From Clostridia bacterium (GTDB taxonomy: Bacteria > Bacillota > Clostridia > Christensenellales > Aristaeellaceae), in assembly GCA_017464305.1 (NCBI GenBank), contig JAFUDS010000026.1:62001-126000 (forward strand): 64,000 nucleotides of DNA. The letters are read 5' to 3'. Below, piece by piece: positions 47,946 through 50,381 of this stretch (its first letter is position 1; each line of letters begins with the position of its first letter). The notes under the pieces were generated by a model. That model was not told the DNA's origin and did not search any database. It was given only the letters and a program-made list of their open reading frames with translations. Made by a program: the position numbers and the translations under genes.

Positions 47946-48119
47946 GTGTCTGAGGTTCGTCTGCGTGAAAATGAGTCCCTGGAAAGTGCGCTCAAACGGT
48001 TTAAGCGGCAGTGCGCCCGCAGTGGCGTTCTCCAGGAAGTCCGTAAGCGCGAGCATTACGAAAAGCCCAGCGTGAAGCGCAAGAAGAAAGCCGAGGCCGC
48101 GCGTAAGCGTAAGTGGTAA
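47946..48119 (+). CDS. rpsU: 30S ribosomal protein S21 (bS21)
   Basis: The 57-residue product starts at a GTG (AGGAGG seven bases upstream) and reads [18 protein letters not shown], then [18 protein letters not shown] and a basic tail: a full-length bS21. bS21 helps mRNA binding at the small subunit. It is flanked by its own strong promoter and terminator. Confidence 0.97.
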
Positions 48120-48129
48120 TCTGGCTCCA

Positions 48130-48160
48130 TTCCCTTCCCCATGTGGGAAGGGTTTTTTTA
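48130..48160 (+). terminator. Terminator of rpsU
   Basis: CCCTTCCC-CATGT-GGGAAGGG (48132-48152) followed by seven T. Confidence 0.93.
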
Positions 48161-48220: not shown

Positions 48221-48352
48221 ATGTCATGGTATTTCTTTTTATTTTCGGAGGTATTTAAGCAGCGGCTTCAGCGCATGATTTCTGCTGTTCCGCTATTTGC
48301 GAATAATGTTTTTCTTTTTGTTTGTATGATACTGTGGCTGAGTGCTGCATAA
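48221..48352 (+). CDS. Possible 43-residue hydrophobic leader peptide upstream of rho
   Basis: An open frame of 43 codons in the rho leader encodes a peptide with a basic middle (KQRLQR) and a C-terminal hydrophobic segment (VFLFVCMILWL). A GAAAAGAGG stretch abuts the ATG, too close for a good ribosome-binding site. It may be a leader peptide, as rho genes elsewhere carry leaders, or chance. An overlapping 10-codon frame begins at 48226. Confidence 0.25.
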   Translation: MSWYFFLFSEVFKQRLQRMISAVPLFANNVFLFVCMILWLSAA

Positions 48353-48407: not shown

Positions 48408-50381
48408 ATGTCCCTGTCTGAACTGCAATCCATGACAGTTATCCAGCTGCGTAAAATCGCGCGGGAGAACAATATTGTCCTGGGCGCCGGTGTGGAAAAA
48501 GCATCTATGATCGAAAAGATTGCTTTGGCGCTGGATATTCCGATTCAGCCAGTACAGCAGTCCATCCTGGATCTGCCAGAGCTGCAAGCCGCGCCTCAGG
48601 AGATGGCTGAGGCTTCGAGCCAGGCGGCGGAGGAGGGTATTCCCCCGGTGGAGGAGCCTGCTGTTTTATCGAATCCCGCTTCTGAGCCAACCGCTGCGTC
48701 CTCTGATGTACCTCATGAGAAGAGCGCAAGCGCAACCTCTGCAGAGACGCCAGTAGCTTCGCCTGCACAAGCTGCGGCTCCCGCGCCTGCTGCTCCCACA
48801 GAGCCTCGTTTCCAGGCAGCCTGGCGCAGTCCCAGCGCTCCTCAAGGAGGGAGCCATGCCTCTTATTCCTCCACGGGGTCCTCTCGGCCTGCCTGGCAGA
48901 ACACAACTCCCTCGGGGCGGCCCCTGTCCACGGATCAAAGGCCGCAACCCTTACGGCCCCACTCCTTTGGCCCTCGCTTTGGGCCTGCTGCTTCTCCCAG
49001 GCCGGATGCGGCCACGTCAGCCCCAGTGGAATCGCCCTTGCGCCCCGCCGTTTCTCCCCTGCCTGATCGGCGGAGCGGTTTCAGCACCGCTGCCTCCTTC
49101 GGGCCTGCGGCAGTGAATGCTGCGCAGGAGGCAGCGCCTGCTTCGCAGACGGTTCCTTCCCCTTCTTCTTCCAGCTCGGAAGAGCCCATCTCTCCCTTCT
49201 CGGATGCTTCCAATTCCGCGCCCACGCTGGAGGAATTGTTGGCCACTGGTGATTTCGAGGAAGGCAGCGGCATTTTGGAGCTGCATCCGGATGGCTATGG
49301 ATTTTTACGTGCTTCCAATTTTATGCCCTCTTCCCGGGATATTTATGTCTCCATGGCTCAGATCCGCCGTTTTTCCCTGCGTACCGGAGACCAAATTCAG
49401 GGAAAGATTCGGCCCCAACGGGAGGGGGATAAATATGCCGCGTTGCTTTATATTGACACGGTGAACGGTTTATCCGAAGAAGAGGCACAGCACCGCCCCC
49501 ATTTTGAAGAATTGACTCCTGTCTACCCTTCCCGGCGGATGTCTCTGGAGAGTAAAGCGGGCGAGAGCCTGCCCGATATGCGGCTGATTGACCTGATTGC
49601 GCCCCTTGGTTTCGGCCAGCGTGGATTGATTCTTTGTCCGCCGGACACCGGGAAACGTGATCTTTTACAGCACTATGCTAATACTATCACGTCCAATTAT
49701 CCTGAGGTGACAGTGCTTACCCTGCTCATCGACCTTACGCCGGAGGATGTTACCTCTTTCCGGGAAAAGGTTTCTTGCCCTGTGCTTGCCTCCACCTTCG
49801 ATCAGGCGCCGGAAGCCCATCTTCGGTTGACCGAGATGGTTGTGGAACGGGCCATGCGCCTCGTAGAGCAGCAGAAGGACGTGGTGATCCTGGCTGACAG
49901 CTTGACTCGTTTGGCCAAGATCTATACCTCTGCAGCAGTTCAGCAGGGGCGTAGCCTGCCTGGCATGGTCAATCCGGCTTCCCTGCTTCGAGCCAAGCGT
50001 ATGTTTGGCGCTGCCAGGGCCATGAAGGAGGGTGGATCTCTTACGGTGATCGCTACGATGGATATTGCTTCTGGCAATAAAGTGGATGATTCTGTCGTAG
50101 AGGAATTCAAAGGTACAGCGAATATGGAACTGCTGCTGGATCAGAATATGGTTCGAGCAGGTATCGAACCAGCGATTAACCTGCTGCGCAGCTTCACTAA
50201 GAATTCCGACCTGCTTTTGAATAATCAGCAAAAAGAGGGGCTCAGTCTGATTCGGCAGATGTTGGGATCTACTTCCTCCGCTGTAGCGATTCCTCAATTG
50301 CTCTCCATGATGGAAAAGGCAAAAACAAACAGTGAATTGCTGTTAAAGATGAAGGATTGGTTCGCCCTGATGGGAATGTAA
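48408..50381 (+). CDS. rho: Rho-family protein with disordered insert and degenerate ATPase site
   Basis: Rho is a hexameric RNA translocase that ends transcription. This 657-residue protein has the Rho N-terminal domain (about 1-45), an Ala/Pro/Ser-rich low-complexity insert (about 60-280), the RNA-binding OB-fold (about 285-360, GILELHPDGYGFLR) and the RecA-like core. Core landmarks are RGLILCPPDTGK, DVVILADSLTRLAK, KRMFGAAR and EEFKGTANMEL. Several ATPase residues differ from E. coli Rho: R417 for the P-loop Thr, L443 for catalytic Glu211, T444 for Arg212, and K598 for the arginine finger Arg366. D497, R501 and K558 remain. It may be a poorly hydrolysing or repurposed Rho. GGAGGAG precedes the ATG. 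Confidence 0.9.
   Translation: MSLSELQSMTVIQLRKIARENNIVLGAGVEKASMIEKIALALDIPIQPVQQSILDLPELQAAPQEMAEASSQAAEEGIPPVEEPAVLSNPASEPTAASSDVPHEKSASATSAETPVASPAQAAAPAPAAPTEPRFQAAWRSPSAPQGGSHASYSSTGSSRPAWQNTTPSGRPLSTDQRPQPLRPHSFGPRFGPAASPRPDAATSAPVESPLRPAVSPLPDRRSGFSTAASFGPAAVNAAQEAAPASQTVPSPSSSSSEEPISPFSDASNSAPTLEELLATGDFEEGSGILELHPDGYGFLRASNFMPSSRDIYVSMAQIRRFSLRTGDQIQGKIRPQREGDKYAALLYIDTVNGLSEEEAQHRPHFEELTPVYPSRRMSLESKAGESLPDMRLIDLIAPLGFGQRGLILCPPDTGKRDLLQHYANTITSNYPEVTVLTLLIDLTPEDVTSFREKVSCPVLASTFDQAPEAHLRLTEMVVERAMRLVEQQKDVVILADSLTRLAKIYTSAAVQQGRSLPGMVNPASLLRAKRMFGAARAMKEGGSLTVIATMDIASGNKVDDSVVEEFKGTANMELLLDQNMVRAGIEPAINLLRSFTKNSDLLLNNQQKEGLSLIRQMLGSTSSAVAIPQLLSMMEKAKTNSELLLKMKDWFALMGM

Follow-up and report, generated by a model that had tools for sequence, protein, structure and literature searches.

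A Rho protein from a Clostridia bacterium with a degenerate nucleotide pocket, a preserved RNA-binding site and a motif-bearing insert

Rho works as a ring motor driven by ATP, and its catalytic residues are described as highly conserved in divergent bacteria (PMC8828861). K181 (E. coli numbering is used throughout) contacts the gamma phosphate, and T185 contributes to holding Mg; the catalytic glutamate is E211, with R212 as arginine valve and R366 as arginine finger. The base is stacked between F355 and M186, and the bicyclomycin pocket includes L320 (PMC11718236 and PMC8828861). In E. coli Rho, D265N and R366A dramatically reduce ATP hydrolysis and leave RNA binding unaffected, and in Mycobacterium tuberculosis Rho hydrolysis, unwinding and in vitro termination all depend on the E211 equivalent, while growth depends on the equivalents of D265, R366 and E211 (PMC5379054). 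The M. tuberculosis protein is a weak NTPase and helicase, and resembles the Rho described here in its reduced activity (for the latter, predicted) and its long N-terminal insert; it differs in retaining the catalytic residues and needing them for growth, whereas the present protein has lost them (parts of PMC8828861 and PMC5379054). Bacteroides thetaiotaomicron Rho likewise has a long low-complexity insert between the helix bundle and the RNA-binding domain, and conserved elements are known in the inserts of Bacteroides and Bifidobacterium Rho (PMC10284900). Rho proteins with phase-separating or prion-like inserts, including that of Clostridium botulinum, carry such an insert as well (PMC4703818 and PMC6400439). 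Bacteroides Rho is described as gaining activity by phase separation; the insert considered here is predicted to be disordered and differs in bearing two clade-specific motifs in a protein whose motor residues are lost.

The window, which is the whole stretch of 64,000 nucleotides analysed, encodes an ATPase-degenerate Rho of 657 residues at 48408..50381 on the forward strand, as are all features given below. The frame starts at ATG 48408, with GGAGGAGG just 5′ of it, and can also be opened by a GTG at 48342; start and stop are as in the initial annotation. The protein scores 435 bits against NF006886, above the curated cut-off of 315, and 427 bits against TIGR00767, below the equivalog cut-off of 509, and is thus a Rho by descent and not an equivalog. 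Against NF041509 (paralog_Rho2, the short-form Rho paralogue) it reaches 325 bits, below the cut-off of 628. Upstream lies rpsU, with a GTG start (47946..48119), a neighbour found in part of the intact relatives too, and a terminator-like hairpin followed by a T run is visible by eye between the two genes, at 48130-48159.

The domain order is that of a canonical Rho. An N-terminal helix bundle (residues 1-44; 48408..48539), with AlphaFold2 helices at 3-7, 11-20 and 31-41 and block pLDDT of 91-96 across residues 1-40, is followed by the large Ala/Pro/Ser-rich insert already remarked in the initial annotation (residues 45-272; 48540..49223), for which disorder is predicted by pLDDT below 50 over most of residues 49-271. 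The primary RNA-binding, cold-shock-like domain (49257..49475) matches PF07497 at 105 bits (cut-off 27) and has 8/8 primary-site residues identical to intact relatives, and the RecA-type ATPase core (49488..50378) matches PF00006 (ATP-synt_ab core) at 65 bits (cut-off 29.5). The AlphaFold2 model, built on a 26-row alignment, is confident in the helix bundle, RNA-binding domain and RecA core, and all 50 Foldseek matches listed for it are Rho or Rho complexes (best E 3.2e-41), so that the Rho fold is predicted to be intact. Compared with Rho of E. coli and M. tuberculosis, the protein thus shares domain order, fold, primary RNA residues and descent, as well as the Walker A Lys, Walker B Asp and R-loop Lys. 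It differs in the absence of the catalytic Glu, arginine valve, arginine finger, K181, T185 and F355, in a rewritten Q-loop, in Asp for L320 and in missing the TIGR00767 cut-off.

These residues were placed with HMMER alignments to the Thermotoga and E. coli Rho chains and with a MAFFT family alignment. Both reproduce, with the same numbering, the substitutions that had been read from the sequence by eye: K181 to D413 and T185 to R417 in the degenerate Walker A CPPDTGKR (49635..49658), E211 to L443 and R212 to T444 where DLTPED replaces DERPEE (49731..49748), and R366 to K598 at the arginine finger (50199..50201). The same holds for the residues said to be retained, D265 (D497) of Walker B (49884..49901), R269 (R501) and K326 (K558) of the R-loop (50067..50084), the last being K in 31/36 and R in 5/36 proteins of the genus. 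K184 is also retained in the Walker A (PPDTGKR). Further changes, absent from the initial annotation, are F355 to E587 at the base-stacking residue, L320 to D552, A319 to M551, T286 to P518 and G288 to M520, and the Q-loop has a conserved form of its own, QQGRSLPGMVN (49935..49973; T286P, G288M, D290N).

Across the 36 proteins of the genus, residue 211 is V, M, L, I or A and residue 212 is N, T or A; E211 and R212 are absent from every one, a pattern in the alignment that is not chance. Residue 366 is K in 34/36 and R in 2/36, and R366K, as a conservative substitution, counts against the reading of a dead motor. Residue 355 is non-aromatic in 34/36 (aromatic in 2/36), T or S at 185 is kept in 21/36 and lost in 15/36, and residue 320 is D in 36/36. 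Positions 184, 265, 266, 269, 283 and 287 equal those of intact relatives throughout, and each protein matches the intact consensus at 3-4 of eight ATP-site residues. The expectation of the initial annotation that ATP hydrolysis should be crippled agrees with the single mutants of D265, R366 and the E211 equivalent, which already abolish or strongly cut hydrolysis (part of PMC5379054), because the window Rho loses several such residues at once; judged by these substitutions, its ATPase is likely lost or nearly so. Weak nucleotide binding may remain, since K184 and D265 are invariant (36/36) and T/S185 is kept in 21/36.

The variation is concentrated in the nucleotide pocket. Within the genus, mean entropy at sites 181, 185, 186, 211, 212, 355 and 366 is 1.60, compared with 0.59 over the domain (permutation P 0.00055); in 37 intact relatives the same seven nucleotide-contact sites average 0.20, entirely owing to site 186, and the domain 0.74. 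The eight positions that we take, from work on E. coli Rho, to form the primary RNA site equal the intact consensus in all 36 genus proteins (8/8, zero entropy). Pairwise dN/dS was computed by the Nei-Gojobori method, many dS values being near saturation. Within the genus, the ATPase part ranges over 0.019-0.102 across 11 pairs, and over 0.019-0.072 when only the five pairs with dS < 1 are counted; the RNA-binding part yields 0.009-0.073 (ten pairs returning a value) and the N-terminal part, insert included, 0.061-0.357. For comparison, the ATPase part lies at 0.066-0.303 in four pairs of intact genera. The frame is open in 36/36 genus rho genes. A constrained core with a free pocket indicates that the nucleotide pocket was released from selection, and not the gene. 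The fragment L097 and the duplicates L001, L102, L103 and L104 were left out of the alignments.

The degenerate protein also appears to stand alone in its cell. The window's genome, a 51-contig assembly of 68.6% completeness, has one Rho match. A full-length degenerate Rho occurs, in one copy each, in 36 of the 45 genus genomes including this one, further matches being to the N-terminal part of that same Rho or, weakly, to ATPase-like proteins; a full-length copy is lacking from nine genomes, which are 54-85% complete. It is single in all 13 genus genomes of at least 90% completeness and at most 5% contamination, two of which are single contigs. Across the family, TIGR00767 has a match, strong or weak, in 195/200 genomes, and in 84 it lies above the cut-off; among the matches listed (≥359 bits, a limit below which short fragments of an intact Rho could go unlisted), none of these 84 belongs to the window's genus or to the other low-scoring genera. 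A second intact Rho or a heterohexamer partner was searched for in the window's genome and in the genomes of the genus and family and was not found. rpsU lies in the short flanks of rho at 27/29 genus loci, 12/30 intact loci and 3/28 other low-scoring loci. A Rho tree (40 rows, quick method, some long branches) and an rpoB/rpoC tree of 60 genomes are similar in their main groups, and a split of Rho at 505 bits (TIGR00767) needs 2 changes on the latter. The single copy, the rpsU neighbour and the agreement of the trees indicate vertical descent of one rho gene, and the window protein is almost certainly the only Rho of its gut-type bacterium.

A long N-terminal extension is as such ordinary in the family, its median length being 314 residues in 30 intact relatives and 231 in the genus; as far as the sequences tell, insert length is not diagnostic and two conserved motifs are. 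In the window they are FQAAWRSP (48810..48833), the genus form of AW[HRQ] or RAWHNP, and RFGPAA (48975..48992). RFGP is present in all 36 genus proteins, in all 10 ATP-intact proteins of the clade (from g20, g23 and g29), in 32/36 other clade proteins and in 0/37 proteins outside the clade, 7 of these 37 having short extensions; AW[HRQ] is found in 36/36, 10/10, 29/36 and 0/37, respectively. Shuffled inserts yield 0.003 RFGP and 0.044 AW[HRQ] per protein, and the real inserts yield AW[HRQ] in 63/69 clade proteins. Genus g8, which branches beside the clade, has neither motif, and two g7 proteins without RFGP retain RAWHNP, the usual form outside the genus. Of 33 clade genomes scanned for the AWHNP codon pattern, 31 have it within the rho coordinates, spelled with varying synonymous codons, whereas 0/5 genomes outside the clade have it in their rho; the other two clade genomes have one match each with its rho place unlisted, and matches outside rho are few and scattered. 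Exact AWHNP occurs in 0/36 genus proteins, which have AW[HRQ] instead, so that this codon scan says nothing about the genus. A third insert motif, ASIIADD-like and followed by acidic residues, was noticed by eye in several proteins of g5, g7, g30 and g35 (for example L075, L079, L086 and L098-L100). Neither AW[HRQ] nor RFGP was found described in the literature reached by searching on the subject of Rho and its inserts. By their distribution, the motifs look older than most of the motor losses; ATP-intact clade members already carry them, and the insert-borne function therefore probably came first.

The wider clade presents several grades of motor loss. Among 36 low-scoring clade Rho outside the genus, 29 lack at least one of E211, R212 and R366 and seven keep this trio; five (genera g10, g12 and g30) keep all six of K184, T/S185, E211, R212, D265 and R366, and a low family score alone is therefore not equivalent to a dead motor. 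In g33, g25, g9 and g3, E211 is kept and R212 lost, with Lys at 366 in 4/6 proteins; in g14, E211 and Walker A are both gone, and in g35 Walker A and Walker B. In g7 the ATPase part is hardly recognisable. The g7 proteins L089, L090 and L098-L100 are about 490-600 residues long; the Rho profile covers about the first two thirds, and AWHNP is kept. The intact genera g20 and g29 are nested among degenerate ones and adjoin g35 in the rpoB/rpoC tree. Parsimony over 50 genomes requires at least six state changes for the E211, R212 and R366 trio and at least five for the six-residue site, taken as losses because an intact site is the rule outside the clade. On this reconstruction, the Rho motor residues were lost in several independent events within the clade.

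Other lineages of the sample show related patterns. One genome of g48 (G048) has two Rho genes, L085 and L101, both degenerate and mutually different, with K, S/A, K and A/T at 184, 185, 211 and 212. In g62 of family f13, a lineage independent of the window's clade, at least four of seven degenerate Rho (L331-L333, L336, L337, L339 and L341) have lost most RNA-site residues too, and the insert motifs occur in 0/7, these being rows that are hard to align. From g62 also comes L326, which keeps all eight ATP-site residues, and from g98 comes L327, which keeps all but R269. In families f25 and f29 of the same order, most sampled genomes (completeness ≥85) have no TIGR00767 match or only a weak one, the weak matches lying mostly at E above 1e-17; one f25 genome, G311, carries a degenerate Rho (E 1.9e-39). 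Within these two families, Rho has probably been lost outright.

Avoidance of Rho has been argued to give genes a purine bias that is weaker where Rho was lost (part of PMC13323073). Groups were split at 505 bits (TIGR00767), which counts g10 and g12 as degenerate, with most of their catalytic residues kept; on this split, fourfold-site purines in rpoB/rpoC are 0.373 in 23 intact and 0.280 in 37 degenerate genomes (genus-level P 0.0003). Other 20-kb regions were taken from the 60 genomes, leaving out G035, for which the chosen region did not exist, and G004, G046, G067, G068, G012 and G016, whose regions were too short, with the window added for G000; in these regions the values are 0.480 in 18 intact and 0.426 in 36 degenerate genomes (genus-level P 0.015). 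Both raw comparisons run in the predicted direction, and neither is significant in phylogenetic regression (rpoBC, P 0.61, or 0.57 when GC3 is included; 20-kb regions, P 0.10 and 0.09, respectively). For the genus itself, 11 genomes give 0.462 against 0.480 in the 18 intact ones, which is no difference (P 0.64); the other degenerate genomes give 0.410 (P 0.0028 against intact). Intrinsic terminators occur at 11/15 convergent pairs in the genus, 8/13 in intact and 13/21 in other degenerate genomes, and in 16/44, 10/39 and 12/35 tandem gaps, respectively, with no clear difference in either. The purine bias and terminator counts of the genus fit continued termination, and a terminator without a motor and an RNA scaffold that does not terminate both fit them.

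The initial annotation had offered an RNA-binding paralogue or a regulator of a second, intact Rho. At 68.6% completeness, the window's genome could be missing such a copy; however, no second Rho turned up there or in the other genus genomes searched, no above-cut-off Rho is listed for the genus or the other low-scoring genera among the 200 family genomes, all 13 of the most complete genus genomes have one Rho and that one degenerate, and rpsU adjoins rho, so that either role is scarcely credible. A decaying gene, in a lineage where Rho has become dispensable and is being lost, would accord with the missing or weak matches of f25 and f29 and with the other genera of the family, where the ATPase part is under weaker constraint (one pair from each of g7, g10 and g35 gives a dN/dS of 0.26-0.34, with 0.10-0.14 for the RNA-binding part where valued) or, in g7, largely gone. 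Other low-scoring pairs give 0.08 (g15), 0.20 (g14) and 0.21 (g16) for the ATPase part; L080/L101, from two g48 genomes and perhaps paralogues, give 0.51, L089/L090 give 0.94 on a poor alignment, and L079/L087 are saturated. In the genus, however, all 36 frames are open, core dN/dS is 0.02-0.10 and the RNA site is invariant, and the truly decaying-looking Rho of f13/g62 loses RNA-site residues too and has no motifs. Decay as a general explanation was rejected for the genus on dN/dS and on the pocket-specific variability, and is very unlikely there; it is possible for g7 and f13/g62.

A Rho with altered chemistry, which the initial annotation also considered, might use E446 or D447 of the PED sequence and K598 in place of the catalytic base and finger, and run as a slow motor. 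The invariance of K184, D265 and R269, K or R at every residue 326, the low core dN/dS and the change of R366 to Lys in 34/36 are in keeping with this, but sites 181, 185, 186, 211, 212 and 355 vary within the genus, as a new chemistry would hardly allow, T/S185 is lost in 15/36, residue 355 is non-aromatic in 34/36, and acids at the PED place occur in intact Rho as well. The proposal is disfavoured by the free variation of the nucleotide-contact sites, and we regard it as quite unlikely. A ring that still terminates but does not translocate, and instead binds to a paused elongation complex and inactivates its RNA polymerase, as in the allosteric route that has been put forward for E. coli Rho (PMC11718236), would explain the conserved RNA site and core, and a purine bias like that of intact relatives is expected if pyrimidine-rich RNA is still terminated. 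M. tuberculosis Rho with its catalytic Glu mutated nevertheless fails to terminate in vitro, and growth depends on the D265, R366 and E211 equivalents (passages of PMC5379054). This reading, a special case of the explanation preferred below, is unlikely.

The preferred explanation is that the protein is an RNA-binding Rho scaffold without a motor, maintained by selection and carrying motifs in its disordered insert (probability about 0.6). It builds on what the sequences show, namely the genus-wide loss of E211 and R212, the nearly genus-wide loss of R366 and F355, an intact RNA site, a constrained core and the two conserved insert motifs. The only Rho of the cell, an ortholog by descent, would have a nucleotide pocket that no longer works as an ATPase and would no longer translocate on RNA; the rest of the protein would be kept by selection as an RNA-binding ring, which is probably hexameric. 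The primary site would capture pyrimidine-rich nascent RNA, and the retained Arg and Lys residues of the Q- and R-loops would hold it. That a function is retained and is RNA-based is likely. Recruitment of a partner by the AW-type and RFGP motifs, which might be RNA polymerase, Nus factors, an RNase or other Rho molecules, is a tentative proposal with somewhat less than even chances. The insert-borne function, being the earlier, may have made the motor dispensable. A parallel for such a protein is the alpha subunit of F1-ATPase, which is non-catalytic and RecA-like, with GK in its Walker A and no catalytic carboxylate, and thus resembles the window Rho. Alpha subunits pair with catalytic beta subunits, and here the likeness ends, as no partner subunit was found for the window Rho. 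Among the open-access titles listed, no paper on a naturally ATPase-degenerate Rho was found, so that its novelty is provisional; a survey of Rho conservation by D'Heygere et al. 2013 is cited in PMC8828861.

An only Rho without motor residues but with an invariant RNA site and a selected core is a natural experiment. It bears on the question of whether Rho must translocate to act or may inactivate polymerase by binding, and it sets RNA capture and scaffolding apart from motor action. The database name "Rho", earned here by passing the NF006886 cut-off, is no guarantee of a terminator motor. A bolder reading of the clade, which we hold to be doubtful, is that a large group of Clostridia-type bacteria gained two short binding motifs in the insert of their only Rho and then lost its motor several times over, each time independently, leaving an RNA clamp that needs no nucleotide, recruits a partner by means of the insert and still controls transcription. 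If true, this would be a natural Rho working without ATP.
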